A program made the translations under genes and the position numbers. From the NCBI GenBank assembly GCA_902809985.1, contig CADDXC010000001.1, forward strand, positions 1,922,001 to 1,986,000: DNA of 64,000 nt. The letters run 5' to 3'. This document shows positions 1 to 13,772 of this stretch, one piece after another (position 1 is the first letter of the stretch; the number at the start of each line of letters is the position of its first letter). The notes beneath the pieces were generated by a model that was not told where the DNA came from, made no database searches, and was given only the letters and a program-made list of their open reading frames with translations. Origin of the DNA: Clostridiaceae bacterium BL-3 (GTDB lineage Bacteria > Bacillota > Clostridia > Clostridiales > Clostridiaceae).

Positions 1-515
1 GGACTCATAATAATCAAATACTTTTTATTATTATGGTACGATTTAAATTCCTTTTCAATCTTTAAATGCTTCGTATAACTTACCATCCACTGTACATCTT
101 TATTATTTTCAGGCCTTTCATTATCTCGAGGTTCTACAGTTTTTCTTTGATTTCCATTTTCTTTATATGTAGGAATAGCTTTATTCTTTCCGTTTTTAAC
201 TTCTTGACGCAAAGGTGGCATATTATTAGGAAGATTATTCAAATAGGTTATTTCATTTCTGTTATTTATATTAACTACAAAACTTTTAACCATTTTAAGA
301 TTTCTTAGTTTATCAAATCTAACGGGCTCCTTAAAATTATTACTTTTGAGTAACATTTCATGAACTACTTTCATATCTTTCATATGAATATTCTCATCAA
401 ATGTTTTAAAGTTAAATAGGTATAAAAGTGAAATGCACAATATTATGATAATACTGGTAGTTGTGAAAGTTATCCATATCCTCATCATCAATGATTTTAT
501 CTTAAATATCTTCAT
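1..515 (-). CDS. Sensor histidine kinase, N-terminal part (cut by window edge)
   Basis: An open frame without a stop runs from an ATG at 515 off the left edge (171 codons seen). Its ATG overlaps the TGA of the response regulator in an ATGA junction, the usual coupling of a regulator-kinase pair. The visible part has a basic start, one membrane helix at about residues 12-34 and then a hydrophilic, Asn/Lys-rich stretch that would be the outside sensor domain. The kinase core lies beyond the window, so the identity as kinase rests on the partner gene and the topology. The signal sensed cannot be read. Confidence 0.75.
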   Translation of the reverse strand, partial: MKIFKIKSLMMRIWITFTTTSIIIILCISLLYLFNFKTFDENIHMKDMKVVHEMLLKSNNFKEPVRFDKLRNLKMVKSFVVNINNRNEITYLNNLPNNMPPLRQEVKNGKNKAIPTYKENGNQRKTVEPRDNERPENNKDVQWMVSYTKHLKIEKEFKSYHNNKKYLIIMS

Positions 516-1192
516 ACATTATCAACTAGCTTATATCCATATCCATATACTGTTTCTATAGTTAATTCGCTAACTTTTTTTCTGAGCCTTCTTATAGTAT
601 CATCCACTACCCTATCAGATCCAAAATAATCAATACCCCATACACTTGTTAAAATTTGCTCTCTGGATATTAGATTATTCTTATTTTCAGCAAGGTAATT
701 TAACAATTCAAATTCTCTATTTGTAAGCTGAATATCTTGATTTTCAAATGAAACAGTTCTTTGATTTTTATTGATAAAGTAGCTCCCCACTTTTAAAATT
801 ATATCTTTTGGACTGTTATCTTTACTGATTACCACCCTATTTAGAAGCCTATTAGTTCTTATAACCAATTCTCTTGGTAAAAACGGTTTAGACAAATAAT
901 CATCACTTCCCAGCTCTAAGCCCACAACCCTGTCAAATTCTTCATTCCTTGCTGACATAAATATGACAGGAGTATTTTTATTGTTTGCCTTTATGCACTT
1001 AATAAGCTCATAACCACTTATATCTGGAAGCATTATATCCAATATCCAAAGATCCGGTGTATCAGGTACTTTTTCCTTTGCACAACTACCATTTGAAAAA
1101 GTAGTTACATCATATCCTTCATTTTTAAGATACTTTTGTAATAAAATTCTTAAGCTATTTTCATCCTCAACTAAATATATTCTTTTAGCCAA
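512..1192 (-). CDS. OmpR/PhoB-family response regulator
   Basis: Two-domain transcription factor. Receiver domain at about residues 4-120 with acidic pocket (VEDE near the start), phospho-acceptor Asp in WILDIMLPD (about residue 52 from this start) and the conserved Lys in LSKPF; winged-helix DNA-binding domain follows, ending in the DDTIRRLRKK and YGYGYKL motifs of OmpR/PhoB proteins. The frame opens at a GTG at 1201, but GAGGTGAT then sits on that codon; a TTG at 1192 is correctly spaced behind it and is preferred. It is the first gene of an operon with the kinase. It lies next to several Pho-box-like promoters, so it is a candidate regulator of them, but that is inference. Confidence 0.9.
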   Translation of the reverse strand: MAKRIYLVEDENSLRILLQKYLKNEGYDVTTFSNGSCAKEKVPDTPDLWILDIMLPDISGYELIKCIKANNKNTPVIFMSARNEEFDRVVGLELGSDDYLSKPFLPRELVIRTNRLLNRVVISKDNSPKDIILKVGSYFINKNQRTVSFENQDIQLTNREFELLNYLAENKNNLISREQILTSVWGIDYFGSDRVVDDTIRRLRKKVSELTIETVYGYGYKLVDNV

Positions 1193-1267
1193 TTTTATCA
1201 CCTCAATCCAAACTAAAGTATTTTTGATAATGATGATAAATAGAAATTTATTATCAAATTTTTATTT

Positions 1268-1289
1268 ACTTGATATTTTAATATCAAGT
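1268..1289. promoter_or_regulatory. 22-bp perfect palindrome upstream of the response regulator
   Basis: Both 11-base arms (ACTTGATATTT / AAATATCAAGT) match perfectly about 75 bp before the regulator start. It could be an operator for autoregulation or a hairpin in the leader. No T-run follows closely. Confidence 0.4.
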
Positions 1290-1375
1290 GGAAATCACAA
1301 TTTTAATTAATCTATAAAAAGTTAGAGAAAAGCTATACTCTCTCCTCTCACTTTTTATAAACTAATTACTGATAT

Positions 1376-1419
1376 AGATAAATCTATAAATAAAATACTT
1401 TCTATTTATAGATTTATCT
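1376..1419. repeat. Inverted repeat, 17-bp perfect arms
   Basis: Arms at 1376-1392 and 1403-1419 are exact reverse complements around a 10-base loop. It lies downstream of the small secreted protein gene (reading minus) and upstream of the response regulator, so it may stop transcription from the former, though it is AT-rich and lacks a clean T-run. A weaker AGAGA/TCTCT stem with a T-run on the minus strand lies just beyond, at about 1317-1345. Confidence 0.4.
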
Positions 1420-1489
1420 GAAATTTTAATTATATACTAACTACTTGTCCTCTATTTTTCTGTAAATATTATTTTGTATCTATATCAAC

Positions 1490-1861
1490 TTATTTGACAT
1501 GCGCTTGCTTTGCAGGAGTTGATTTCACATTAGCAGCTGAACCGTTAAAGATCCCTATCACTTTTGATTCCTGTGAACTGTTTATAATATGAGCTGCTAC
1601 CAACCTGTCTAATCCAGTTTTAAAATCTCCCTGAGATTTAAACACATTCAATATTTTCGACTCCTGGTAATTATTTATAATTCTTGCTTTTACCAGTTTA
1701 TCAAGTTGAGCTTTAAAATTTCCATAAGAGTATTTGGTTTTATAAACTATTCCTGATTTTGTATTAGCAGGCTTAGCCTGAACCGTCGTGGTAACTCCTG
1801 TACTTACCAATGGTGCTAAAACCATTATAGCTGAAATTAACCTATACTTCATTTTTAACAT
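1490..1861 (-). CDS. Small secreted protein with two QESK repeats
   Basis: A 123-residue protein with a signal peptide (MLKMKYRLIS start, hydrophobic core to about residue 22, cut likely after VQAKP-A region). The mature part holds two copies of a repeat of about 35 residues: aromatic-x-FK, LD-KLV, A-x-IIN, then QESKxxxxF (about residues 46-78 and 81-113). The product at 9875-10357 is a clear paralogue with the same signal peptide and repeats, and a decayed third copy lies at 2065-2196. I do not recognise the family and no catalytic motif is visible. The ribosome site is AGGAGGTAAGG. A Pho-box-like promoter precedes it. Likely a secreted, stress-induced protein of unknown role. Confidence 0.75.
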   Translation of the reverse strand: MLKMKYRLISAIMVLAPLVSTGVTTTVQAKPANTKSGIVYKTKYSYGNFKAQLDKLVKARIINNYQESKILNVFKSQGDFKTGLDRLVAAHIINSSQESKVIGIFNGSAANVKSTPAKQAHVK

Positions 1862-1909
1862 TTTCCTTACCTCCTAAATTTAATATTTATTTGTTTTGGA
1901 TTTATTTCA

Positions 1910-1965
1910 ATAATAACTATTAAATCTATGTCTAATATGTAGAAATTGTGTGATTTTTATGTGAT
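1910..1965 (-). promoter_or_regulatory. Pho-box-like promoter of the 1490-1861 gene
   Basis: On the minus strand four hexamers sit at exact 11-bp period: ATCACA (1960-1965), ATCACA (1949-1954), TCTACA (1938-1943), GACATA (1927-1932), then 11 bp, then TATTAT (1910-1915) as -10. B. subtilis and clostridial PhoP boxes are TT(A/C/T)ACA-like repeats with about 5-bp gaps just ahead of the -10. The same geometry recurs four more times in this region. Confidence 0.6.
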
Positions 1966-1972
1966 ATAGAAC

Positions 1973-2031
1973 CTAACATAAATTTAACACTACTTTTTTG
2001 ACATCTTACAGACATAATTTTTGCTTTAATT
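1973..2031 (+). promoter_or_regulatory. Pho-box-like promoter, disturbed copy
   Basis: CTAACA (1973) and TTAACA (1984) are 11 bp apart, TTGACA (1998) and CAGACA (2009) are again 11 bp apart, with 3 extra bases between the pairs; TTAATT follows 11 bp later. It points at the decayed gene at 2065 and is back to back with the promoter at 1910-1965. Confidence 0.4.
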
Positions 2032-2064
2032 TACTTAGAGCTAAATTTTAGGTGGAAAAGATAT

Positions 2065-2196
2065 ATGTTAGAAATAAAATACAAACTAAGATCTATATTA
2101 TCAGTATCTGTGCATATAACATTTTTTACCCATTATTATATAATTAATTTATTACGCCTTCATGTTATATCAATTAACAAACTATTTTTGTTGTAA
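2065..2196 (+). pseudogene. Decayed copy of the small secreted QESK-family gene
   Basis: A 43-codon frame behind a good ribosome site (AGGTGG). Its first residues, MLEIKYKLRSIL, match the signal peptide starts MLKMKYRLIS and MLKMKYKLIS of the two intact genes, but the sequence then drifts and stops with no repeat. It also has its own disturbed Pho-box-like promoter. Best read as a truncated paralogue; it might still be made as a short peptide. Confidence 0.55.
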
Positions 2197-2249
2197 ACAA
2201 TTACCACCAAATTATGAATAAAATTTAAACTAAATATAAGTTAAAAAGT

Positions 2250-2305
2250 CTCACATAAACTTAACAACATCTTGACATCTTATAAAGTTAATTACCCAAT
2301 ATAAT
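2250..2305 (+). promoter_or_regulatory. Pho-box-like promoter ahead of a transcript without clear gene
   Basis: CTCACA (2250), TTAACA (2261), TTGACA (2272) and a poor fourth copy (2283) at 11-bp period, then 11 bp and a perfect TATAAT (2300-2305). The strong terminator at 2450-2495 would end a transcript of about 180 bases. Only an 18-codon frame from a TTG at about 2350 is possible in it, so the product may be a small RNA or the leftovers of another family member. Confidence 0.55.
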
Positions 2306-2449
2306 TTCATTTAAAATAAGTTATTGAAGGAAAAAATCTAGGAGTATTTGTACATCAAAGTTTCTCAGGTGATGCTGAAGTCAGTAATTGAATTTTTATT
2401 ATAATTGTTTACTCTTCATAAATTTAAGTTTAAAATAAAAACAGTCTGA

Positions 2450-2495
2450 GTTCTCTTTTATAATCATATATAATTATAAAAGAGAACATTTTTTT
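2450..2495 (+). terminator. Rho-independent terminator
   Basis: Perfect 15-bp stem (2450-2464 with 2473-2487), 8-base loop, then A and seven T. It stands about 150 bp behind the promoter at 2250-2305 and before the SGNH hydrolase operon. The rest of the 1862-2604 gap shows nothing else I can name. Confidence 0.75.
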
Positions 2496-2604
2496 GTAAT
2501 TCTGAACCACGTTCCTAATTCTAATATTTGAAAATAACATAATTACTTGACATTCTTTAAATATAATAAAGTTCAAGTAATATTTTTAATTGGAGGATAA
2601 ATAC

Positions 2605-2706
2605 AATGACAAAAAAGAGCTATGGAGTCAACAATATTAATAATGGTCTAATGAATAATTTAGAGCTTAGCTCAAAATTAAAATTGATAAAATATGAAAA
2701 CAGATA
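2605..2706 (+). CDS. Short leader ORF overlapping the SGNH hydrolase
   Basis: A 33-codon frame with a strong ribosome site (TTGGAGGATAA, well spaced) begins at 2605 and stops at 2706, 13 bases inside the next frame. The hydrolase ATG at 2694 itself has no ribosome site and stops lie directly before it in frame. Either the two are translationally coupled, or this is the true N-terminus of the hydrolase separated by a one-base frameshift. The composition (Asn/Lys-rich, no hydrophobic core) fits an N-terminal extension. Confidence 0.5.
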
Positions 2707-4439
2707 AATATACTGTAAGTAAAATTTGCTGTGGAGAAAAAGTAAGCTTTCAGGATACGTGGACATCATGGGAAAATAATGAAAAATTTCCAGTAGCTTT
2801 TTTGGGAGACAGTACTGTGGATGGAAATGAGACTACATCCTGGGTGAAAAATGAGATAGGACAGGATCATCAGCCTCCACATGCCTTTACAACTTATTTA
2901 CAAAATCTTGTAAGGGTATATACAGGTTCAAATACAGCTAGAATTTATAATGCAGGGTTCTCCGGACAAACTGCTAGCTGGGCATATTCAAATATAAATA
3001 GTATATTTGCAGGAAATTACTCGGATGTAAAGATGATAGGTATAGGATTTGGAATAAATGACAGACTCGGGGTGACTTCCACTAAAGATTATGAGAGTGA
3101 TTTTAAAAGAAGCATTGAAAATATAATATTGTGGTGTTTTAAAAATAATATACAGCCTTTTTTATTGACTACACAGGCTACAGTTGAACCGGGAAGTACT
3201 GATAGTTCCAGTTATCCCTATCGTACCAGTGAAAGCATAAACTCTGTAGCAAATACAGTTAAAAAGAATCTGGCCAAAAAGTATAATATACAATTAATGG
3301 ATCTAAATTATTATACATCGAAACTGTTATCAAACAATGATACTTATAGCTTAAAGAACATCATAAGCCAAGATCATCTGCATTTTAAGGATAAAGGTCA
3401 TGAATTTGAAGCTGAAACCATATTTGCTTATTTTAATCCAAGGGTAGTTGTACTTGATGGAAAAAATAAGCTTAAGATTGATTTTACTTCACAAAATATC
3501 AAAAGCAATGTTGAAAGTGATAAAGTTTCTTTTGAAAACAGTCCTATAAATCTATGGTATGGAAATAATCTTTTTAATAATTTTATATATTACTGCAAAA
3601 AAGATGACATGGATACGCTTTTACAGGATTTTTTAGTTTTCAATTTATCAAATGGACTTGAACTTTACAGTATGCAGATTCAGGTACCTAAAAATCCAGG
3701 ATATACTCTTCCTTTATCTGAAGATGAAAAACCCTATGTTATTTTTAATGACAAAAAATATGTGCTAAAGGATACATTTATAGACAGCTATTTTTCAGCC
3801 ATGAATGTGAACAGGCCATTTTTAGTTGATAATTTGCGATTTGGCCTCAATAAGGTAAAGCTTTATTCAGGTAAATTTAACAGAGCAGCCTCAGGTGGAT
3901 TTTATATTTCACGGAATTTTAAAAACTACAGTTCAAGGATATCGATAGTCCAGGATACTAATGGAGATATATCAAAACAATTTTTGACTCCTTATAAATT
4001 TCAAAATTATTTTGAGCATAAAGCTCTATTCAAGCTTAATATTGACAGCAATATCTCCACCAGTAGAACCAAATTTTTAGTTCCTGTCGTGGATAGGGCA
4101 GATTCGGGGCTGGCACTTGAGTTTGAAAATGGTACTGTTGAATTGATTGAATACGTGAGAAAAAGCAGCTGTCTGGATGATGTCGGGAATTTGAAAAAGT
4201 TGGCATATATAAATACTCAATCAAATTCTCAGGAGTCTACAAAATCCATTAAAATATACGTTAGAATAAATGAAGCTTCAATTGAAGTATATAAGGAACT
4301 AAAATCTTCACCAATTATAACCTATAATACGCATAAGGAGATTATCGGTTCAGGTATTTTTGCCAATTTCATAAAGCTTGAATATCAATGTAATGGAGAC
4401 TATTTAATACTTGATACAGATATCTTGTACAGCATATGA
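2694..4439 (+). CDS. SGNH/GDSL-type esterase or lipase-like hydrolase
   Basis: A 581-residue protein. The first 250 residues are an SGNH hydrolase domain: block I FLGDST (catalytic Ser about 40), an Asn-Ala-Gly-Phe-Ser-Gly block II near 86-91, block III GFGIND (Asn about 122), and block V DHLH with Asp 227 and His 230. The remaining 330 residues match no domain I recognise and look like beta-rich binding modules. No signal peptide is seen from this start or from the upstream leader frame. SGNH enzymes cleave ester bonds, often acetyl groups on cell-wall or plant polysaccharides; the substrate here is not readable. It converges on the surface protein gene at 4503. Confidence 0.8.
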   Translation: MKTDKYTVSKICCGEKVSFQDTWTSWENNEKFPVAFLGDSTVDGNETTSWVKNEIGQDHQPPHAFTTYLQNLVRVYTGSNTARIYNAGFSGQTASWAYSNINSIFAGNYSDVKMIGIGFGINDRLGVTSTKDYESDFKRSIENIILWCFKNNIQPFLLTTQATVEPGSTDSSSYPYRTSESINSVANTVKKNLAKKYNIQLMDLNYYTSKLLSNNDTYSLKNIISQDHLHFKDKGHEFEAETIFAYFNPRVVVLDGKNKLKIDFTSQNIKSNVESDKVSFENSPINLWYGNNLFNNFIYYCKKDDMDTLLQDFLVFNLSNGLELYSMQIQVPKNPGYTLPLSEDEKPYVIFNDKKYVLKDTFIDSYFSAMNVNRPFLVDNLRFGLNKVKLYSGKFNRAASGGFYISRNFKNYSSRISIVQDTNGDISKQFLTPYKFQNYFEHKALFKLNIDSNISTSRTKFLVPVVDRADSGLALEFENGTVELIEYVRKSSCLDDVGNLKKLAYINTQSNSQESTKSIKIYVRINEASIEVYKELKSSPIITYNTHKEIIGSGIFANFIKLEYQCNGDYLILDTDILYSI

Positions 4440-4502
4440 ATAGATTTGATTCTCATACAAATCCATACCCATTCTCCTTTTAAACAAAGGTTAAACTCTT
4501 TA

Positions 4503-7500
4503 TTAGTTGGTCTTATGGATAAAAGTTACTTTATTATATACTACTCCATTGGTTAATTTTTTATCGCTTCCAGTTCCAATAGTATTATAATAAACCGTCA
4601 CCGGCTTATCAGCAGAAATATTATTTAAATCCGCAATTGTCAATTTTCCAACATAGCTGTCATTAGTAACCTTCCATTTAGAGTTCTTATCAAATGATGC
4701 TGTTATTCCCCAATTTGACGCTGCTCCATAATAGTTACCATTTAGCCTTGTAGTAATACCAGCATTATTTGTATACTTTGCAGATCCATCCCATAGCCCC
4801 AGACTACCATCGGCAAAATTTCCTTCAAAATTGGAATTTTTAAAATTTACTTTCAAAGAAGACTTTCTATTACCTGCCATTCCCTCAACAGCTCTGCTGA
4901 CATTACCTTCATTCCATATTATACCGTTAATTGTTCCACTGCTATCAACAAAATTAACTGTTGGTGAAGAACCTGCTTCAGAGGCAATAAGATAATTATA
5001 ATCATTCTTGTTTCTGTTTATATATTTATTATTTGTAAGATTCAAGGTCGTACTTGATGCCTCAAAATCCAACACAGAATTTATGTTCCCACCAAAACTG
5101 CTGCCAGCCGTCAGATACGGCACATAATAAAAGTCAGTAGAACCAGTATATGATCCAGCAGAATAGTTGTAGTAAGTATTGTCTAAAACACTGTTGCGCA
5201 GAAGTGTACTATCTGTATACATTTTATTAGCAATATTACTGAGTTTATTAAGTAATGTTTTTTTAGCAGCTCCTGTAATATTATAGTTTTTACATAATTT
5301 ACCTATAGTCATTGCAGGGTCGCTCATCATATATTGCATAAGTACATAGCTTCCACTTGCATTTTTCCACGTTTCCGCAGCTGCCTTTGCTTTATTTCCT
5401 GTAATATAGCCGTTATAATTTCTAAATGCCGTAATAGTTGAATTAGAAATATCTGAAGTACCTGTTCCTCCGCCTCTATTTTTAATTCCCATAACACCTT
5501 TTATCTGACTGTCTGTTATATGATAAGTCCCTCCACTCGCAATAACAGCACCAGCATCAGCATATGAAGTAAGAGATGATTTATCAGCAGAAATTACACC
5601 GCTGCCAATAACATATGCACCTGCAGAACGATTCCCATAAACTTTGGCTGTATAATTATTAACTTCAACAACACCATTGCCGAAATCATTTGCCAGCGAA
5701 GAAGCCTGCCCTACTGAATATGAACCTTTTTTCCCAGTTGAAGCAGTAACATTTTCAAGATGTGCATAGCCGCCATACACACAATCGGCTACATGATTGT
5801 TCCATCCTTCGAGATTAAAATCTGTATTATAAACATATACTTTAGATGTAGAAGATTTTGCTGCACTACTTCCTGTATTTTTTCCGCCACAAGCCGCAAT
5901 AACACCATTAGCACCATCACCTGTTGCCAAGAGTGTGCTGTGATGTGTGCTATTGCCTTTTTCTCCAAGTATTACAGTACCACCCTGTGTAGCATAAAGT
6001 AATGCATTCATCCCCCATTGCATAACAACTTCAGTATTATAATTTGTGAGGCCCGTCTCATATGACATTTTTGCCCAGTTCCCTGTGGAAGTACTTTTTG
6101 CATTAATCCTTTTTGCCTTTATAGCTCCATAATTAGTAGCCCAAAGAATGCTGCGTTCTTGGTTGGCACCCCCCAAAACACGATCTCCTTTATAAGTTTG
6201 ATCCTGACCATTTTTGTCAGTATATACAAACGAAGTATCTGCAGATTTAAGTTTAAGTGGATTATCATATTCCAAATTTTTTCCATCTGCTGTAATTACA
6301 GAATTTGCAAAAGAATAATAGGCCGGATCCATTTCCTTCCTTGCACTTAACCCGTTAAGGTATTTATCATCATCTAAAATTGATGCAGTATCTTCATCTG
6401 CGCTGAGATCAAAGGGTGAATAATAAATAACATCTACATCTCCATCATTGTCAGTGTCTTTATATGCAACATATTTATAAGAAAGATTGTCATAATTATT
6501 TGCATCAACCAATTTACCATGAGTTGCAGTTCCATTAACATATTTACAGATTATAGTGCCAGTCTTTACATCATATGCCATGACATTTGGATCAAGATTA
6601 ACTCTGTTACCATTTATATAATAGCCTTCTTTAAAATTAAATCTGCCCTTAATAGCTCCATAGCTTGAATCTGATGCTATTTTTTTATTGAGTTTATCTG
6701 CTTCAGATTGAGTAAGTGCTCTGAATGTCTTATTCAGTTCTCCTGCCTTAACCTTACCTTTAAGACTATCTGCTATAGTGACAGCAAGACTATAGTCAAC
6801 AATTCCAGTAAGAGTTCCTGAAATAGTATATATGTATGTGTTTGTTTTACTGTTAAATGTACTTGAATTAACTTTGCACCCAGTTCCTCTTAGTACAACA
6901 TCAATATTTGTCTTTGAAATAGGATAAGTTTTTACATTAAGATAAGTTCCATAATTAGCACATAGTGTTTTATCCGCTGCCGTATATGGATCATTATTGT
7001 TTAAATCTTTAATATCTACTGTTGTTTCAGTATAACCTGTTTTGGATACCTTATTTTTACTGCCAAGTGCATTCACAAGTTTATTTGTATTTTCAATATT
7101 ATATTTTGAATTTAAATATACTACAACATTGGGATTACTTTCAAAAGCATCTGTACTTAGAGCTACATTGGCATTTGCAATACTTATAACAGCTACACTG
7201 TTGCAATCATAGAATGCCCATGAATCAATTTTCGTAATTCCGTCCGGTACATAAAGTGAACGTATTTCAGAATGACGCGCAAAAGCCTGTGATCCTATCT
7301 CATTTACAATAGCTCCGTCAAGAATTCCAGGAACTACAACTGTAGTATCACTAGTTCCACTATACTGAGTTATCTTTGCTGTTTTAGTTGCTTTTGATGG
7401 TGATACTGAATTGTCTGTAGTTGTCGTAACTGTAAATTTCCAATTTCCATACTTTTCATTTTTTGTAGTTGTAGTCACATTTGATTTAAATTGGCCATTC

Positions 7501-7607
7501 GACTTATTGCCAGCCGCAAAAGCCAAAGAAATCATATTGAAATTGGAAAGTGAATAAATTAATAAAAAAGATAAAATTAAATATCTCCGTATTTTCCATA
7601 TTCTCAT
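4503..7607 (-). CDS. Secreted surface protein: BspA-type leucine-rich repeat plus beta-helix
   Basis: About 1034 residues from the ATG at 7607, chosen because AGGAGG lies 7 bases before it (an in-frame codon at 7637 has no site). A signal peptide (basic RIWKIRRY, hydrophobic core, cut near AFA-A) is followed by a short BspA/LRR_5-like stretch (about residues 60-160: IGSQAFA, GITKIDSWAFYDC). From about 500 on it is a long Gly/Asn/Ser/Thr-rich region with repeated turns such as SSTTLNLTNN, typical of right-handed beta-helix adhesins. No LPXTG, SLH or choline-binding anchor is visible. Second gene of an operon with 7675-9618. Likely an adhesin or surface-layer-associated protein; function unproven. 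Confidence 0.75.
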   Translation of the reverse strand: MRIWKIRRYLILSFLLIYSLSNFNMISLAFAAGNKSNGQFKSNVTTTTKNEKYGNWKFTVTTTTDNSVSPSKATKTAKITQYSGTSDTTVVVPGILDGAIVNEIGSQAFARHSEIRSLYVPDGITKIDSWAFYDCNSVAVISIANANVALSTDAFESNPNVVVYLNSKYNIENTNKLVNALGSKNKVSKTGYTETTVDIKDLNNNDPYTAADKTLCANYGTYLNVKTYPISKTNIDVVLRGTGCKVNSSTFNSKTNTYIYTISGTLTGIVDYSLAVTIADSLKGKVKAGELNKTFRALTQSEADKLNKKIASDSSYGAIKGRFNFKEGYYINGNRVNLDPNVMAYDVKTGTIICKYVNGTATHGKLVDANNYDNLSYKYVAYKDTDNDGDVDVIYYSPFDLSADEDTASILDDDKYLNGLSARKEMDPAYYSFANSVITADGKNLEYDNPLKLKSADTSFVYTDKNGQDQTYKGDRVLGGANQERSILWATNYGAIKAKRINAKSTSTGNWAKMSYETGLTNYNTEVVMQWGMNALLYATQGGTVILGEKGNSTHHSTLLATGDGANGVIAACGGKNTGSSAAKSSTSKVYVYNTDFNLEGWNNHVADCVYGGYAHLENVTASTGKKGSYSVGQASSLANDFGNGVVEVNNYTAKVYGNRSAGAYVIGSGVISADKSSLTSYADAGAVIASGGTYHITDSQIKGVMGIKNRGGGTGTSDISNSTITAFRNYNGYITGNKAKAAAETWKNASGSYVLMQYMMSDPAMTIGKLCKNYNITGAAKKTLLNKLSNIANKMYTDSTLLRNSVLDNTYYNYSAGSYTGSTDFYYVPYLTAGSSFGGNINSVLDFEASSTTLNLTNNKYINRNKNDYNYLIASEAGSSPTVNFVDSSGTINGIIWNEGNVSRAVEGMAGNRKSSLKVNFKNSNFEGNFADGSLGLWDGSAKYTNNAGITTRLNGNYYGAASNWGITASFDKNSKWKVTNDSYVGKLTIADLNNISADKPVTVYYNTIGTGSDKKLTNGVVYNKVTFIHKTN

Positions 7608-7674
7608 ATAGCATCCTCCTGTAAATATAATAATCAAATTAAATATACTAAGATTGTATCAAAACATTATGTGA

Positions 7675-9618
7675 TTAATGTCTTATCGGCGTAATTGCAA
7701 GCTTTATATTACCCTTGTAAGTACCAGTTTCAATATTTTTTTCAATTCCATTAACCTTCATTGTAACCTTATATCCACCAGGAGCAGTAATTTTAGAATT
7801 ATTATCAATAGTTAGACTTGTCAAATATGAATCACCGGCAACAATCCAATTTGAGCCATTAATCAAGGATAAAATCACCCCATTGTTAACAGCACTACTG
7901 ACTTTATTTGTGACTTCTCCCAGCTGTTTATAGTCTACAGATGTAATCGTATCTTTTTTATGCCTAGCAGTAGAAGACGAAATTACACCATTTATTTTAG
8001 CGTTGTCAAATTTTAAAGAAAGATTTTTATCTAAGTTTACCATCTTACCCATCATATCTTTCCCCATACCACCACGGGTAGAATTATAAAAGTTGCCCTT
8101 TAAACTTATATTAGAAAATTCAGCAACAGTATCTGTATCCTTTACGGCCGTGGAAGTATCATGATTTTTATCCAATACAGCAGCACCACTTGGCTCATGA
8201 TACACACCTGTAGTGTACATCACCCCATCATTACCCTGAACTGTACCTGGATCGTCACTGTCCATCAATTGTAAAATAACTCCTGTTTTAGATCGTATAT
8301 GAGCGCCTTTAGAACCATCTACACTAATATTTGCAGCAGCACTTTTAACTAAAAAAGTAGTTTCCCCAGTTTCAAAAACTGTACCATCTGCAATATCTAC
8401 AGATCCATTGCCATGCCACATAATACCAAAACGGCCAGATTTGACAGTAGTTTGTTTCTTTTGCAGAGATTTTAACTCCCTTGAAGTAAGACCAAGATTC
8501 AAGTTACTATTAAGTATGACTAATTTAGTAGGTGTACTAGCACCAAAAATACCACTGCCATTAGTAATAATCAAACCGTAGTCAGCAACCTTGAATTTAC
8601 AGCCATAGAAGCTGTCTACAGCTGAACCTGTTGCATAAGCCCCATATCCACTATTACCAGTATTAACAATTCCACTATTTATAGCAGTAAGTTTTGTATT
8701 CCTGCAGTCATCAACGGAAAGAACACCCCATCCCTCGGAGGATAGTGAAGAATTAATGTATGTGGCAGTAGTATTATTTCCTATTGCATTAGTTGCTCTG
8801 CAGTTGCCTGAAAGGCCAAGCATCCAGGGTACTGATTTCATATAGCCTGGTTTTGCATTTGGCTTATAGTCTGATGGAAGAATACCATTTTTAACATCAA
8901 CATTGGTATTTTTAACAATCAGATTACTGCCTCCACCAGCAACAATGGCAGGGCGGATTGCACCATGAGTTTGAATATTTGTATTATCTACTATAAGCCT
9001 TGTGTTCACGCCAGTTGACATAATACCTGCACCGTAACCAGCAAAATCATTGCCTCCATTACCTGTCAATCTAATTTTAGCGGCATTGACGTTGTAAATG
9101 CCACCAGAAACATAAATACCATTGAATTTTTCTTCTTCTGATGTAATATGTATATTATTTGCAGAAACATTTGACACATTTCCACCAATTATTTCGGCTA
9201 AAACAGACTTGTCAGCTGCAACTCCAGAAGAATCTACATATAATGCCTGTTTAAAATAATGTGTAAGAGCAGAAGAATACTTGACCACATTTTGCTTAGT
9301 TATGGAAAGTACAATGTTGCCACTATACATACCTTCTTTAATTGTTTTTCCAGTACCATTAACTGACAGTGTCACATCATAACCTTCTGGTGCGGTAATG
9401 GTGGCCTTTTTGCCAATGATCAACCTTCGTAACTTTGTAGTTGTATTGACAACCCAAGTAGAACCAGCTTCAACTGTTTTAGAATTCTGTGCAGATAACA
9501 CAGCATTTGCTGCAGCTGATGCTTTAAATGGCATTGTTTTAGCAGAAGCCAGGTAAACTATACTACTCATTACAGCAGCAATGACTGTACAAGTAATAAG
9601 AATTTTTGTCCTTTTCAT
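7675..9618 (-). CDS. Secreted beta-helix surface protein with matching end domains
   Basis: A 647-residue protein with a signal peptide (MKRTKILITC..., cut near ASAKT or KASA-A). A module of about 55 residues occurs at both ends: WVVNTTTKLRRLIIG...ITAPEGYDV...YSGNI near residues 55-110 and WIVAGDSYLTSLTI...ITAPGGYKV...YKGNI at the C-terminus. Between them are beta-helix style repeats rich in Asn, Gly and Ser (for example NTNIQTHGAI and NTNVDVKNGI). The last domain of the next gene (WKVTNDSYVGKLTI) is the same module, so the two products probably share an assembly or anchoring role. No sortase motif. First gene of the operon; 67 bp to the next start. Confidence 0.75.
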   Translation of the reverse strand: MKRTKILITCTVIAAVMSSIVYLASAKTMPFKASAAANAVLSAQNSKTVEAGSTWVVNTTTKLRRLIIGKKATITAPEGYDVTLSVNGTGKTIKEGMYSGNIVLSITKQNVVKYSSALTHYFKQALYVDSSGVAADKSVLAEIIGGNVSNVSANNIHITSEEEKFNGIYVSGGIYNVNAAKIRLTGNGGNDFAGYGAGIMSTGVNTRLIVDNTNIQTHGAIRPAIVAGGGSNLIVKNTNVDVKNGILPSDYKPNAKPGYMKSVPWMLGLSGNCRATNAIGNNTTATYINSSLSSEGWGVLSVDDCRNTKLTAINSGIVNTGNSGYGAYATGSAVDSFYGCKFKVADYGLIITNGSGIFGASTPTKLVILNSNLNLGLTSRELKSLQKKQTTVKSGRFGIMWHGNGSVDIADGTVFETGETTFLVKSAAANISVDGSKGAHIRSKTGVILQLMDSDDPGTVQGNDGVMYTTGVYHEPSGAAVLDKNHDTSTAVKDTDTVAEFSNISLKGNFYNSTRGGMGKDMMGKMVNLDKNLSLKFDNAKINGVISSSTARHKKDTITSVDYKQLGEVTNKVSSAVNNGVILSLINGSNWIVAGDSYLTSLTIDNNSKITAPGGYKVTMKVNGIEKNIETGTYKGNIKLAITPIRH

Positions 9619-9786
9619 TATTTTTCCTCCCTCTGTAATCTTTAAATTTCTTTAACACACTCACTTATTCTTAGATTTTCATAATTAACAGAGCAAATCT
9701 TCTTATAACCTGTAATTTAATACAATATATCCATTTTTAGTTATTTTATTTATATTTTAAGGAAAAATAAGAACATGTGAGATAAT

Positions 9787-9842
9787 TATAAAAAAGTACA
9801 CGTCAAATATTTAGCATGTATTTTTCAATTGGCGTGTACTTT
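9787..9842 (-). terminator. Rho-independent terminator of the 9875-10357 gene
   Basis: Fourteen-base arms (9829-9842 and 9793-9806, one mismatch) pair on the minus strand and are followed by a T-run. It closes the single-gene transcript of the secreted QESK protein. Confidence 0.7.
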
Positions 9843-9874
9843 ATTAAATTAACTTAAACTTTTATATGCTTGTC

Positions 9875-10357
9875 TTATTTATGCGCCACTGGTGCTGGAG
9901 TTGCAACATTAGGTGCTCCACCTTTATTAAATCCTCCAGCATTGTTCTTTGGAATATCTTTATGACCCGAATTATCTTTCTGTGCTGGAGCTGGTGTCGG
10001 TGCAACATAATCATATGCATAATCATATGCATCATAGTATGCAACGAATATCTTCGATTCCTGATCGCTATTTATTATTCCTGCTGTTACTAAATTATCC
10101 AGTGCATCCTTAAAAATCGATTTGTTAGTATTGAATATGTTCAACACCTTTGATTCCTGGTAAGAATTTATCACCCCAGATGCTACAAGCTTATCCATTG
10201 AAGCTTTAAAGCTTCCATAAGAGTACTTGTAAACTATTGGTTTTGGCTCAGGTCCATAATTCCTTGGAGCAGCACTTACTGTTGTAGCAACTCCTGTGCT
10301 TAATATTGGAGCTATAACCATAGCTGCTGATATTAATTTGTACTTCATTTTTAACAT
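9875..10357 (-). CDS. Small secreted protein with two QESK repeats and Pro/Ala-rich tail
   Basis: A 160-residue paralogue of the 1490-1861 product. Signal peptide MLKMKYKLIS... to about residue 28 (TTVSA-A), then two repeats of FK/FKxxxDxLVxxGxIN..QESK (about residues 48-82 and 84-118). After the second repeat there is a Tyr/Asp/Ala stretch (YDAYDYAYDY), then a Pro/Ala/Gly/Asn-rich tail to the end, which could cross the cell wall or be a flexible spacer. The ribosome site is AAGGAGG. Promoter with four 11-bp-spaced Pho-like hexamers, own terminator. Function unknown; likely induced by the same signal as its paralogue. Confidence 0.75.
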   Translation of the reverse strand: MLKMKYKLISAAMVIAPILSTGVATTVSAAPRNYGPEPKPIVYKYSYGSFKASMDKLVASGVINSYQESKVLNIFNTNKSIFKDALDNLVTAGIINSDQESKIFVAYYDAYDYAYDYVAPTPAPAQKDNSGHKDIPKNNAGGFNKGGAPNVATPAPVAHK

Positions 10358-10391
10358 TTATCTTTTCCTCCTTAAATTTGATTACAAATAC

Positions 10392-10447
10392 ATTATAATA
10401 AGGAATTATGTTAATAAAATGTCATCATAATGTTAAATTAATGTGAT
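10392..10447 (-). promoter_or_regulatory. Pho-box-like promoter of the 9875-10357 gene
   Basis: Minus strand: ATCACA (10442-10447), TTAACA (10431-10436), ATGACA (10420-10425), TTAACA (10409-10414), all at 11-bp period, then 11 bp and TATAAT (10392-10397), about 35 bp before the ATG. This is the cleanest of the five copies. Confidence 0.65.
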
Positions 10448-10541
10448 TCTCATCTAAACAAATATTTTAATAATCTACTTATAAAAATTTTATGCCCTTC
10501 ATTCTTACGATTTTATATGTAAGCAATAAATTATCTGGTAT

Positions 10542-10577
10542 ACAAAAATAAAGACCATTCATTTTTAGAGTGGTCTT
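10542..10577 (-). terminator. Terminator-like hairpin behind the IS66 remnant
   Basis: Arms 10568-10577 and 10551-10560 pair with one mismatch; on the minus strand TATTTTTG follows. It would end the transcript started at the promoter 10939-10994. Confidence 0.6.
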
Positions 10578-10706
10578 ATTTTTGCTGTTTGTTATTTTTA
10601 AAGGAACACTTAACCCATGAATCCCAGAGCAAGCATTCTTTTAAGAATTCAAAATAGCTGTATGGCTCCAATCCATTGGCTTTAGCCGTTTCAATATGCT
10701 TTTTCT
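10576..10706 (-). pseudogene. IS66-family transposase remnant (C-terminus)
   Basis: The minus strand encodes KKHIETAKANGLEPYSYFEF and a short tail to a stop at 10576. ETAKANGLxPYxYxxxL is the hallmark near the C-terminus of IS66 TnpC transposases. The rest of the roughly 500-residue transposase is missing, so this is a dead fragment left between the secreted-protein gene and the small ORF at 10716. Confidence 0.65.
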
Positions 10707-10715
10707 TACTTTTTA

Positions 10716-10844
10716 TTACTCTGCGAGTAGTTCAACAATTTCATCAAGTACAGGCTTAATATAAGTTATCAGTGTCATAATCAAAGTGTAATACATTATA
10801 TTTTTGTTGAATTTTCTATTTCTCTTTATATTAATTTCCCTCAT
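10716..10844 (-). CDS. 42-residue ORF under a Pho-box-like promoter
   Basis: Frame from ATG 10844 with an AGGGGATA ribosome site about 7 bases before it; the product has a basic N-terminus (REINIKRNRK) then a mildly hydrophobic, acidic C-terminal half (TLIMTLITYI...DEIVELLAE). It stops 10 bp before the IS66 fragment. It may be a real small protein or a chimera formed when the IS element decayed. Nothing like it is recognised. Confidence 0.35.
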   Translation of the reverse strand: MREINIKRNRKFNKNIMYYTLIMTLITYIKPVLDEIVELLAE

Positions 10845-10938
10845 AAATTATCCCCTGATTCATTATAAAATATTAGTATCCTCATATTTAGTAATTTTTA
10901 ATTAAATAATTGCTGCACAGCTTTAGTACAATAGGAGA

Positions 10939-10994
10939 ATTATAATTAAGAAAATTGTACATAAAATGTGAAAATTGTGTCTACATTATGTGAT
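10939..10994 (-). promoter_or_regulatory. Pho-box-like promoter ahead of the 42-residue ORF
   Basis: Minus strand: ATCACA (10989-10994), TAGACA (10978-10983), TTCACA (10967-10972), TGTACA (10956-10961), then 11 bp and TATAAT (10939-10944). Same geometry as the other four sites. Confidence 0.6.
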
Positions 10995-11154
10995 TCACAT
11001 CTTAGAAATATCTAATTTGAAAAATTTGCCTTTTCGATCAATGAATATACAAGATTAGATTTTTGGGGAGGCTTTATTTTGGATGAAAAAAACTTGGCAG
11101 GTTTATAAGAAAAACTTATTATATCAAATGCGTTCCCGCTAACTAATTCTTTAA

Positions 11155-11610
11155 TTATTCTTCACTCACTTGAATACATTGTGTACATAGACCGTAATAG
11201 ATAATATTTTGATTTTCAATTTTTACATGATACCTGTTTTCAATTTGTTGTTCTGTCATACTCATTTCCGGTAAATATATATCAGTAATACTGCCACATC
11301 TAGTGCATATAAAATGTCTGTGCTTATTTTTCTCCTCGTGATCAGTTAGTTGATACTTACAACAGTTTCCCTGTACCATTATTTTGTATAAAATACCAAT
11401 GCTTTCTAACTGATTTACAGTTCTATAAACCGTTGGAATACCTATTTGTGAAAATATATTTTTGGCTTGATGCCATATTTCTTCAACTGTTAAATGTCGT
11501 TTTCTATTTGTAAAGAGAACATCCAGAATAGCCCTACGTTGAGGAGTCATTATAATACCATTATCTATAATAATTTTCTCAAAGTATTCGAGATGCTTTA
11601 TTTTTTCCAT
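11155..11610 (-). CDS. Fur-family metalloregulator (Fur/Zur/PerR type)
   Basis: About 151 residues. N-terminal winged helix (MTPQRRAILDVL; PTVYRTVNQLESIGIL) and C-terminal dimer domain with the structural zinc site CTRC and LCTQC and the His-rich HEEKNKHRHF that belongs to the metal-binding pocket. The ATG at 11610 is chosen because GGAGGGGG precedes it; an ATG at 11628 lies upstream of that site. Such proteins repress iron, zinc or peroxide genes when metal-bound; which of the three cannot be told. It follows the MarR gene by about 65 bp and may be co-transcribed. The promoter side 10995-11154 shows only a 19-codon remnant frame on the plus strand. Confidence 0.88.
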   Translation of the reverse strand: MEKIKHLEYFEKIIIDNGIIMTPQRRAILDVLFTNRKRHLTVEEIWHQAKNIFSQIGIPTVYRTVNQLESIGILYKIMVQGNCCKYQLTDHEEKNKHRHFICTRCGSITDIYLPEMSMTEQQIENRYHVKIENQNIIYYGLCTQCIQVSEE

Positions 11611-11676
11611 ATACGAATCCCCCTCCATAGCCTAAATCACCTAGCTTTAGCTCAATATCATTATTTTTTATACTTG

Positions 11677-12204
11677 TTAAAAATATTCATGCCGTTTATT
11701 ACGATGATGTCCACAGCTATGCTGTCGTTTATAACCTCCAAAATCTGAGTCCCTCTGATTAGCTTTCGTTTTTTGTTCCAGCGAATCAATAATACGGTTA
11801 AGATATTCCTTAAAAGTATACTGCTCTTCTTGTGTCAAACAATCAAAAATTTCATTGAAATCTTCAGGCTGTTGATTCCCTTTGTTGACTACTTCAGCTC
11901 CGGACTCAGTAAGCTTGATATTTATTCTCCTGCGATCAGCCTCTGAGGCTGTACGTGTGATATAACCATTTTGTTCCAACTTAGCTAGTAACTCTCCAAC
12001 AGATTGAGGGCGCATATCTAAAAGATACGTTAACTTTTTCTGAGTAATCTCAGGCTGCATTTTAAGCAAAGATAAGATCCTTCCTTGACCTCTATGAGGG
12101 TTGCCCATTGGTCCATGAACTGTACGGTAATAATGGTAGTATCTGTGCAAAAGCCACTCAATACGTGTAAATAAGCACAATAGATCTTGTTTGTCTTCAT
12201 CCAT
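11677..12204 (-). CDS. MarR-family transcriptional regulator with His-rich tail
   Basis: A 175-residue protein with the MarR winged helix at about residues 40-140 (GRILSLLKMQPEITQKKLTYLLDMRPQSVG recognition region in pieces, wing ITRTASEADRRRINIKLTESG). The last 20 residues carry Cys and four His (HSCGHHRNKRH), unusual for the family and possibly a metal-sensing tail. Ribosome site AGGAGG. Its promoter carries two copies of a GGTACCTTACTAA element, one as a perfect palindrome, so autoregulation is very likely. Confidence 0.88.
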   Translation of the reverse strand: MDEDKQDLLCLFTRIEWLLHRYYHYYRTVHGPMGNPHRGQGRILSLLKMQPEITQKKLTYLLDMRPQSVGELLAKLEQNGYITRTASEADRRRINIKLTESGAEVVNKGNQQPEDFNEIFDCLTQEEQYTFKEYLNRIIDSLEQKTKANQRDSDFGGYKRQHSCGHHRNKRHEYF

Positions 12205-12233
12205 CTTATTTTCCTCCTGTTAAAGTATAAAAT

Positions 12234-12288
12234 TTTAGTAAGGTACCTTACTAAATATTATTGTACAGGTACCTTACTAAAATGTCAA
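12234..12288 (-). promoter_or_regulatory. MarR-gene promoter with two operator copies
   Basis: Minus strand: TTGACA (12283-12288), exact 17-bp spacer, TACAAT (12260-12265). A perfect 22-bp palindrome centred on GGTACC (12234-12255) covers the start site; a second AGGTACCTTACTAA copy (12267-12280) lies inside the spacer. Placement predicts strong autorepression. Confidence 0.8.
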
Positions 12289-12298
12289 GCATCTTTAC

Positions 12299-12331
12299 AA
12301 AAAAATTTTCCCGAGCCTCTTAGCTCGGGAA
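12299..12331 (-). terminator. Rho-independent terminator of the radical SAM gene
   Basis: GC-rich stem TTCCCGAGC / GCTCGGGAA (12308-12331) followed on the minus strand by a run of seven T. Confidence 0.85.
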
Positions 12332-12389
12332 TTGTGTATTTATTATTATGGAAATAGCCGTACACTCAATGCAGCTTTTCCTTTATATT

Positions 12390-13772
12390 TTATCCTTTAG
12401 CAAACTTATCATTGCCACTCCCCTTAAAAAATTCCTGCCAGGTTTTTTCAGCATATGGTGCAAATTCTTTCGACGACTTCGTTATCTTTTCGTGAAATTC
12501 AGGGTCATGAAGCATTTTCTCCGCTCCAGCATCGTCCGGCTTAGCCCCTACTTCCTTGCATACATTTATTATGACATTGGTATTATCTATCATACTGCAT
12601 GGTCTCAACATGTTTTTATTATAGGGCTGCATAGATCTTAATTTCTTAAAGAATGGATCCCTGAATGCATCTATCAAATGCCTGCCTTTTAAATTAACAG
12701 TTGAAAAATGTGAAAATATGCACGGTTCAACATCTTCTTTAGAATTAACATGGAAAAAGTATTTACCTGCAATGCATCCTCCAACATACGGGGCATCATT
12801 AAAGAAATCTATAGTAAAATACGGTTTATTAGCCCTTATTTCTCTGTTTCTCCTTCCAAGATAATCTCTCTGTTCTCCTGTAAGCATCATGTCAAAGTCT
12901 TCATCTTCCCCATTGACAGGCATGAATAAAAAGTACCAGCTCATTTTAGAGCCTTTTCTAATTAACATATCTGTAAATTCATCGCTGAGCACTGTATTTA
13001 TATTAGTCCTCGTAACAGCTGAAGACACCCCGAACAGTATCCCTCTTTCATGAAGCATATCCATAGCTTTCAATACCTTTTGGTATGTTCCCTTTCCTCT
13101 ACGTGCATCAGTATCCTCTTCAAAACCTTCAACTGAAAGCATAGGTATCACGTTGCCGCTTTTTTTGAGTCTATCTGCAATTTTTTCATTAAGAAAAAGT
13201 CCGCTGGTAAATGGTGTAAACATTACATCATCATATTTCTCATAAATGTCCAGAAGATAGTCATTAAAGAAAGGTTCTCCACCTAAAATAATAATATAAT
13301 AAATTCCAAGATCCCTTGCTTCTCCTATAATCCTGTCAACCTCCTCCGGTGGAATATCATCCTTTTTACTAAAACTTGAGGCATAGCATCCCTTGCAATG
13401 AAGCGGACATCTCATAGATGGGCTTAAAAGCATAACAAATGGTATTTTAGTATCCTCTTCATCCATATATTTCTGCCTTCTCGGTCCAGCAAACCAGTTC
13501 GCATTTGCAAAAAAACATGAGAAAAATTTTTTCAAGCATTTGGTATCCGTATTTTTTAAGATATCCTGAATATATTCATGCTTGTATTTGTCATTGTTAT
13601 AATAACTCTGAACAAATTCAATTTGAGCCAATGCAGATTCATCTTTAGTTAGCATTTTAATAGCCTCAAATATTTTATCTATATTTTTTTCCGGGTTTTT
13701 ATCAAGATAACCAACAATCTTATTTACAATGGTTTGTTTAGTAGCCTTTTCTAAATTATCTATTATCTTCAT
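12390..13772 (-). CDS. Radical SAM protein
   Basis: A 460-residue protein with the radical SAM cluster motif at Cys122, Cys126, Cys129 (RCPLHCKGCY), the GGEPF glycine motif near 175 and a C-terminal extension with further Cys (GGCIAG, EPCIFSHF, RPCSMID) suggesting an auxiliary cluster (SPASM/twitch-like). The first 110 residues are helical and family-specific. It would use S-adenosylmethionine and an iron-sulfur cluster to start a radical reaction; the substrate is unknown. It follows the TetR gene by 90 bp on the same strand, so that regulator probably controls it. Ribosome site AAGGAGG. Confidence 0.85.
   Translation of the reverse strand: MKIIDNLEKATKQTIVNKIVGYLDKNPEKNIDKIFEAIKMLTKDESALAQIEFVQSYYNNDKYKHEYIQDILKNTDTKCLKKFFSCFFANANWFAGPRRQKYMDEEDTKIPFVMLLSPSMRCPLHCKGCYASSFSKKDDIPPEEVDRIIGEARDLGIYYIIILGGEPFFNDYLLDIYEKYDDVMFTPFTSGLFLNEKIADRLKKSGNVIPMLSVEGFEEDTDARRGKGTYQKVLKAMDMLHERGILFGVSSAVTRTNINTVLSDEFTDMLIRKGSKMSWYFLFMPVNGEDEDFDMMLTGEQRDYLGRRNREIRANKPYFTIDFFNDAPYVGGCIAGKYFFHVNSKEDVEPCIFSHFSTVNLKGRHLIDAFRDPFFKKLRSMQPYNKNMLRPCSMIDNTNVIINVCKEVGAKPDDAGAEKMLHDPEFHEKITKSSKEFAPYAEKTWQEFFKGSGNDKFAKG

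Follow-up and report, generated by a model that had tools for sequence, protein, structure and literature searches.

Five promoters in a 64,000-nucleotide stretch of the Clostridiaceae bacterium BL-3 genome (assembly GCA_902809985.1, contig CADDXC010000001.1, positions 1,922,001 to 1,986,000; the whole stretch is called the window here) carry arrays of four hexamers at an 11-bp period followed by a -10-like element. Which regulator acts through these arrays, and on what? An earlier note, made from the letters of the window, took them for boxes of PhoP and the promoters for a small local regulon of secreted proteins that is switched on by phosphate shortage. Our comparative sequence analysis leads elsewhere: the arrays are in all likelihood activator sites of a two-component system; they accompany its response regulator (RR), which is encoded in the window, across clostridia, and they probably serve an envelope-stress or surface-modification regulon.

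Geometry and detection of the arrays

All five sites are present where they had been reported (s1 to s5, Table 1), which confirms the observation of five repeat-bearing promoters. The module is 55 bp long and rigid: box starts fall on positions 1, 12, 23, and 34 in s1, s3, s4, and s5, with a -10-like hexamer beginning at position 50. The cleanest copy is s4, which reads TCACAT N5 TAACAT N5 TGACAT N5 TAACAT N10 TATAAT; the fourth boxes of s1 and s3 are poor. The 3-bp slip reported for one site lies in s2, after box 2. The repeat design described earlier also stood, with its TNNACA-like hexamer corrected to TCACAY/TNACAY. Boxes 1 and 2 are strong and nearly invariant (TCACAT N5 TCACAT); boxes 3 and 4 are weaker and in other species often read TTTGAT and TGCNAC. 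In most arrays the -10 element is TATAAT at positions 50 to 55; because the cores were picked as the best matches to one of our matrices (A5, below), the frequencies of boxes and -10 elements are biased towards that matrix. By inspection, the arrays have no -35 element at 17 bp. An OmpR/PhoB-type promoter design, as proposed earlier, is supported, with tandem direct repeats at about 11 bp in the target promoters.

Three home-made models were used, and their E-values are rough. R1 (alignment A3) was trained on 13 relatives' promoters, and R2 (alignment A4) included s1, s3, s4, and s5 in its training. R3, a gapped model, was built from an alignment (A5) of 20 promoters of three other species (G002, G003, and G011) with no sequence from the BL-3 genome, and an ungapped matrix was made from the same alignment. 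Site s2 was excluded from every training alignment, and A3/R1 and A5/R3 contain none of the other four sites either. We turned to the broader R3 because R1, whose top three matches in the BL-3 genome were s4, L005, and s2, missed s1, s3, and s5 among its 30 matches at E ≤ 10.

With the ungapped A5 matrix, s4, s1, s5, and s3 ranked 1 to 4 among the 127,878 positions of the window (41.0, 34.1, 24.8, and 13.1 bits, respectively). Sixty first-order Markov copies of the window reached at most 12.5, with a mean maximum of 2.9, so s3 barely clears chance; s2, scored without a gap, ranked only 61st. R3 placed s4 (E = 4.9e-9), s1 (3.4e-7), s2 (8.9e-4, detected through a 3-base insert), and s5 (0.013) as the best four matches of the window. 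The next two matches follow s5 closely (0.028 and 0.029), and s3 is absent from the R3 window matches at E ≤ 1.

Across the 3.86-Mb BL-3 genome, where 150 of 10,215 candidates were scored, the best six R3 matches were, in order, s4 (E = 3.0e-7), s1 (2.1e-5), L005 (1.2e-4), L002 (0.013), s2 (0.074), and L004 (0.093). All six are promoters of one protein family or of its decayed copy, and the next match stood at E = 0.37. At this scale s5 is within noise (E = 2.1) and s3 is not among the matches at E ≤ 5. A simple IUPAC pattern with 2 mismatches proved too blunt for the same genome and was rejected (9 matches, several overlapping, versus 3 for a backward control). Its surplus matches included a phased TTACA array (L009 and L010) and others inside or between genes without a sensible target. 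The TTACA array (G000:C1:27298-27346) is a separate 11-bp-phased array with an ABC transporter gene and the genes of a two-component pair nearby, and it is perhaps a site of that neighboring regulator.

Co-occurrence of the arrays with RR

In 40 genomes outside the R3 training set, with 134 candidates scored per genome in both groups, R3 arrays (E ≤ 1e-3) were found in all 20 genomes that have an RR orthologue (nine genera, one to eight matches each) and in none of the 20 that lack it. The first group comprised 20 of the 35 orthologue-bearing genomes outside the window's genus; the second consisted of nine genomes of that genus plus the first 11 listed, a non-random choice. Thirty loci were kept from this test, and each fits an ungapped 62-column matrix with at least 38.6 bits. 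The wider family holds an RR orthologue in 39 of 206 genomes (E ≤ 1e-80, 14 candidates scored per genome), four of them in the window's genus.

Within that genus, RR is present in 4 of 13 genomes at E ≤ 1e-55, and R2 matches (E ≤ 1e-3) occur only in these four: 7 in BL-3 (G000), 14 in G002, 16 in G003, and 12 in G011, where 17 of the 49 matches, including all 7 of G000, are R2 training sites. The best R2 match in the nine genomes without RR had an E-value of 0.0026. The small set of secreted-protein promoters proposed earlier is retained. The word "local" is too narrow, since three BL-3 arrays lie outside the window and R2 finds 12 to 16 in each of three relatives.

The arrays also lie close to RR itself. 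In 17 of 26 RR loci of other genera there is an R3 match within 1.5 kb (E ≤ 0.01), usually directly upstream of the RR gene or just after the kinase gene, about one kinase length past RR. Eleven of the 12 genome_contigs loci with an RR at 67% identity or more have an array match at E ≤ 0.01, including those of C. akagii, C. polyendosporum, C. rhizosphaerae, C. algoriphilum, C. frigoris, and C. oryzae, whereas none of the nine loci at 52-62% identity has one at this threshold. This comparison covers 21 of 40 RR-like loci; the other 19 are at 25-39% identity. In 38 RR loci, TNACAY pairs occur 43 times at a spacing of 11, compared to 0 to 9 times at each other spacing from 6 to 44. Species overlap between the 26-locus set, the identity-graded loci, and the 38-locus count, and some species appear twice among the 38.

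The regulator encoded at 512-1192 had been named earlier as a candidate, a suggestion that gains support from the tracking of RR by the arrays. We propose that RR (512-1201), the partner of a histidine kinase whose gene begins at 515, binds the arrays. In this model, two dimers of phosphorylated RR would sit in tandem along one side of the helix and occupy all four 11-bp boxes, with the stronger sites (boxes 1 and 2) under the upstream pair. They would bring in sigma-A RNA polymerase at promoters whose -10 element is good but which lack a -35 element at normal spacing. PhoB recruits polymerase likewise, its tandem dimers contacting the enzyme from one side of the DNA. In several species RR would act on its own gene or operon too. 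Across clostridia the regulon would make and export surface modifications (GT2, YkcB-type transferase, GtrA, GalU, and HlyD-type exporter subunits) and would also include secreted hydrolases and small proteins. Its role probably lies in envelope stress or surface modification, with envelope stress as a conjectured signal.

Targets of the arrays and the partner kinase

Array genes in G002, G003, and G011 (each name covers one or more of the three genomes) include a YkcB-like PMT_2 transferase whose operon also holds a second RR and kinase copy, a GT2 protein, GalU, a GtrA protein, a GDSL hydrolase homologous to that of the window, a subtilase, SpoIIID, ApbE, an uncharacterized 122-aa protein, and a 46-aa probable membrane protein. 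The best models for the GT2 protein were PgfS and ArnC, both under cut-off, and its YkcC label rests on its pairing with the YkcB-type protein. The ArnC and ArnT models were far under cut-off (164 of 529 and 39.5 of 567 bits, respectively). GT2, GT-C, and GtrA proteins together are the make-up of Gram-positive transmembrane glycosylation systems, which leads us to the reading of envelope modification or stress. Two tandem arrays stand upstream of spoIIID in G003 (L168:1423-1589) and G002 (L186), a possible link of the two-component system to sporulation. The GDSL arrays of relatives are weak (E-values of 0.0012-0.0017; 0.0014 with R2 for the G003 gene), and the first 32 aa of the G003 GDSL protein have no counterpart in the window protein.

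In the other genera, 30 of the best arrays were inspected and ten first genes were run through Pfam; a rough rule served to choose the first gene downstream, and for L297 and L303 it clearly missed that gene. The ten were a HlyD-type membrane-fusion protein, a GT2 protein, a PMT_2 protein, two GT87-like proteins, a 4HB/HAMP chemoreceptor-like protein, a beta-lactamase-fold protein, a phytase-like phosphatase, a DUF2680 protein that also has the spurious TFIIA match of the QESK protein, and one protein without a match.

In the BL-3 genome the arrays with clear targets precede genes of small, putatively secreted proteins that have a signal peptide in common; no clear R3 match there stands before a glycosylation gene. 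Two of the targets, at 1490-1861 and 9875-10357, are paralogous QESK proteins and a third array stands before a decayed copy (open reading frame 2065-2196), all as described earlier. From its N-terminus, QESK protein 1 is probably secreted. The three arrays outside the window (L005 at C2:557097, L002 at C1:2784781, and L004 at C1:1918229) precede further members of this signal-peptide family; a sixth member, L006, has no array. What can be detected of the regulon in BL-3 has shrunk to one family of small, putatively secreted proteins, of which three have an identical leader. Relatives of QESK protein 1 occur in 11 of 13 genus genomes (E ≤ 0.001), and those in genomes without the regulator have no clear array. 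A scan of named genomes with the QESK alignment gave zero relatives; the later scan used the regulator alignment.

A second family in the relatives, KP-rich short peptides, has the same kind of signal peptide, and its promoters have up to six ACAT-type boxes, 11 (once 10) bp apart, before TAGAAT in the same register. Arrays of up to six boxes, against the usual four, lie upstream of KP-rich peptides in L091, L092, L095, and L086. In L095-L097 the genes of these regulated small proteins have a signal peptidase I gene nearby, and in BL-3 its homologue (L046:8444-8974) adjoins the kinase gene.

The leaders of L002, L004, and L005 are identical in each pair (50/50 bp). Between L002 and L004, identities are 57/65 in the promoter, 81/95 in the signal-peptide DNA, and 94/188 in the mature part, which is no more alike than the upstream background (88/178). 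Between L002 and s4 they are 43/74 in the promoter, 37/59 in the leader, 83/90 in the signal-peptide DNA, and 116/174 in the mature part. Given these opposite patterns, L002 looks like a fusion of two types, with the promoter and leader of one, the protein of the other, and the junction in or close to the signal peptide.

Table 1. Arrays and associated features of the window (strand relative to the window as read).
Feature	Position	Strand	Remark
Partner histidine kinase, 5' part	1..515	-	490 aa; continues left of the window (L046:9044-10516)
Response regulator RR	512..1201	-	receiver and Trans_reg_C (Pfam), OmpR/PhoB type; proposed array activator
QESK protein 2	1490..1861	-	123 aa; paralogue of QESK protein 1
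Array s1	1910-1965 (listed span 1907..1968)	-	promoter of QESK protein 2
Array s2	1973-2031 (listed span 1974..2031)	+	3-bp slip; precedes decayed family copy
43-codon remnant, MLEIKYKLRSILSV...	2065..2196	+	downstream of s2; resembles family signal peptide, by eye
Array s3	2250-2305 (listed span 2247..2308)	+	weakest; box 4 degraded
Hairpin and T run, probable terminator	2448..2496	+	between s3 and GDSL gene
GDSL hydrolase	2694..4439	+	65% identical to G003 GDSL protein with weak promoter array
QESK protein 1	9875..10357	-	160 aa; signal-peptide-like N-terminus and two QES(K)-type repeats
Array s4	10392-10447 (listed span 10389..10450)	-	promoter of QESK protein 1
42-codon open reading frame	10716..10844	-	downstream of s5; significance uncertain
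Array s5	10939-10994 (listed span 10936..10997)	-	no clear target except the 42-codon open reading frame

Downstream of s3 a terminator-like hairpin (-18.0 kcal/mol, z -5.6; 0 of 200 shuffles equally good) is followed by the GDSL gene. The strand opposite to the window as read, at 10570-10700 (frame 2 after s5), resembles the C-terminal end of what we take to be an IS66-type transposase remnant. Rfam at gathering thresholds gave no match over window positions 1-13000, so no known RNA family explains s3 or s5. Weak half-arrays lie directly upstream of the gene of a 1044-aa leucine-rich repeat protein (7651-7685, - strand, R3 E = 0.028 in the window) and of the GDSL gene (2531-2586, + strand, R3 E = 0.23).

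The partner kinase has HAMP and HATPase_c domains and is encoded adjacent to RR, as is found for OmpR/PhoB-family two-component systems. Its homologues lie near RR in G002, G003, and G011, where the RR orthologue is also near QESK genes. Among the 94 NCBIfam models matched by RR, it is under the cut-off of all 25 shown. On two curated models used for PhoB/PhoP, RR and the BL-3 PhoP-like protein both stay below the cut-off: 176 and 257 bits for TIGR02154 (cut-off 296), and 186 and 221 for NF053854 (cut-off 270). BL-3 has a second kinase gene (4496-5872 in L046, left of the window) whose product is 73% identical to the partner kinase; over some 960 bp at their 3' ends the two genes are 93% identical in DNA. 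The second gene has no adjoining regulator and abuts a Mutator-type transposase gene.

Competing explanations and known systems

Phosphate control was the explanation offered earlier, and it was rejected because no array was found at the pst loci examined or, at E ≤ 1e-3, in the nine genus genomes that have pstS without RR. That PhoP binds the arrays under phosphate shortage is now hardly credible. The arrays do share the general geometry of Pho boxes, and a PhoP-like regulator is encoded a few kb before pstB in the BL-3 genome (pstS and phoP were named from sequence and position, pstB by TIGR00972). However, although all 13 genus genomes have a homologue of the BL-3 PstS-like protein, none of the 13 pstS loci (with 1.5 kb on each side) has an array; the best R3 E-value there was 0.095, with the clostridial PhoP motif itself not modelled. 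The 11-kb phoP-phoR-pst region of BL-3 reached only E = 0.2, the nine genus genomes with pstS and without RR have no array at E ≤ 1e-3, and the 13 pst loci contain zero TNACAY pairs at spacing 11. The first downstream genes of arrays that were inspected (20 by Pfam) included no pst gene and one phytase-like phosphatase (G070).

The arrays could instead be bound by some regulator that merely accompanies RR, such as a WalR-like protein or a further member of the OmpR family. The BL-3 genome has 25 matches to RR at E ≤ 1e-20, RR itself included, and an 11-bp period is likewise found in the S. aureus WalR motif, TGTHH N6 WGTNDD (PMC10746227). We regard this as improbable, as many loci of other genera have an array near RR, no array was found at E ≤ 1e-3 in the RR-less genomes searched, and RR itself, at 182 of 340 bits, falls far short of the YycF/WalR cut-off. 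The arrays might also be alike merely through duplication of genes with their promoters and need not be regulatory. The identical leaders of L002, L004, and L005 do indicate that part of the similarity is descent. As an account of the arrays at large this is very improbable, as the same geometry stands before unrelated genes (GalU, SpoIIID, ApbE, GtrA, subtilase, and HlyD-type) in relatives and other genera, and as boxes and -10 elements are kept while spacer bases change.

Several points weigh against control by RR. One locus with an RR at 72% identity (L255) has no array match, and three family promoters from RR-less genomes (L088, L094, and L100) score 14.1 on a crude box scorer, where L002 of BL-3 scores 13.8; R2 and R3 find nothing at E ≤ 1e-3 in the genomes of those three. 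Any other regulator co-occurring with RR would give the same pattern. Site s3 is near chance and s5 is inseparable from noise at genome scale, and weaker sites may be missed, as the genome searches scored 134-150 candidates each out of thousands at first look. In BL-3 there is no R3 match (E ≤ 1) between the QESK protein 2 gene and RR; the RR gene may be reached by read-through from s1. Finally, the phospho-acceptor motif is SHSLKTT in both BL-3 kinases and SHDLKTP in 7 of 7 aligned orthologues. An acidic residue at this motif of such kinases matters for autokinase activity, and since it is lost here, signalling output in this strain may be altered.

A fuller reading of the RR system, which taken as a whole we hold only tentatively, is that a conserved two-component system senses envelope damage and would switch on a sugar-coat pathway (GalU, GT2, YkcB-type transferase, and GtrA), exporters, and secreted coat proteins, and that in BL-3 a spreading cassette of promoter, leader, and signal-peptide start has been joined to unrelated mature proteins. 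If true, this would be the bacterial counterpart of exon-like shuffling and would let new secreted proteins enter the regulon and come under one sensor. The phosphate guess is replaced by a testable set of regulator, site, and targets, seen in ten or more genera of a single clostridial family (nine besides that of the window), and the rigid 55-bp promoter module marks the regulon in genomes of the family.

How do the arrays compare with known systems? Pho boxes (PhoB/PhoP in E. coli and Bacillus) likewise have an OmpR/PhoB-family regulator and 11-bp direct repeats upstream of a -10 element without a normally spaced -35 element. The arrays differ in their regulator, in the TCACAT box, in their absence from the pst loci examined, and in their envelope and secretion targets. 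The PmrA system with ArnC/ArnT modification of lipid A is also analogous as a two-component system with 11-bp-phased sites that controls a GT2 protein and a PMT-type transferase; unlike it, the system described here is found in Gram-positive hosts, and its proteins are far below the ArnC and ArnT cut-offs. The PhoB box is given as 22 bp with two 11-bp direct repeats (PMC3978041).

WalR (YycF) sites share 11-bp-phased repeats and cell-envelope targets with the arrays (PMC10746227). In contrast, RR is not YycF by cut-off, and TGTHH N6 WGTNDD differs from TCACAY N5 TCACAY: by inspection, the reverse strand of the array reads ATGTGA, with G after TGT where the published motif has H. A start-site study of C. 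autoethanogenum lists seven promoter motifs, three of them common. Two of these three are of the -10 or -35/-10 type, and a TetR-family protein is linked to the third, Pcauto (PMC6873888). The array could be among these motifs, as Pcauto or one of the other four. A literature search, with many subscription papers outside its reach, found no title or abstract describing this regulator or motif, and the clostridial regulon is apparently undescribed.

The transmembrane glycosylation systems CsbB-GtcA-YfhO and YkcC-YkcB resemble the targets of the arrays, which include GT2, PMT_2/YkcB_C, and GtrA proteins; the difference is that here the likeness lies in the target genes only. For YkcBC, the flippase, sugar, and polymer are listed as unknown in a review (PMC8035078). 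The putative RR regulon offers an entry point to the function of YkcB-type glycosylation.

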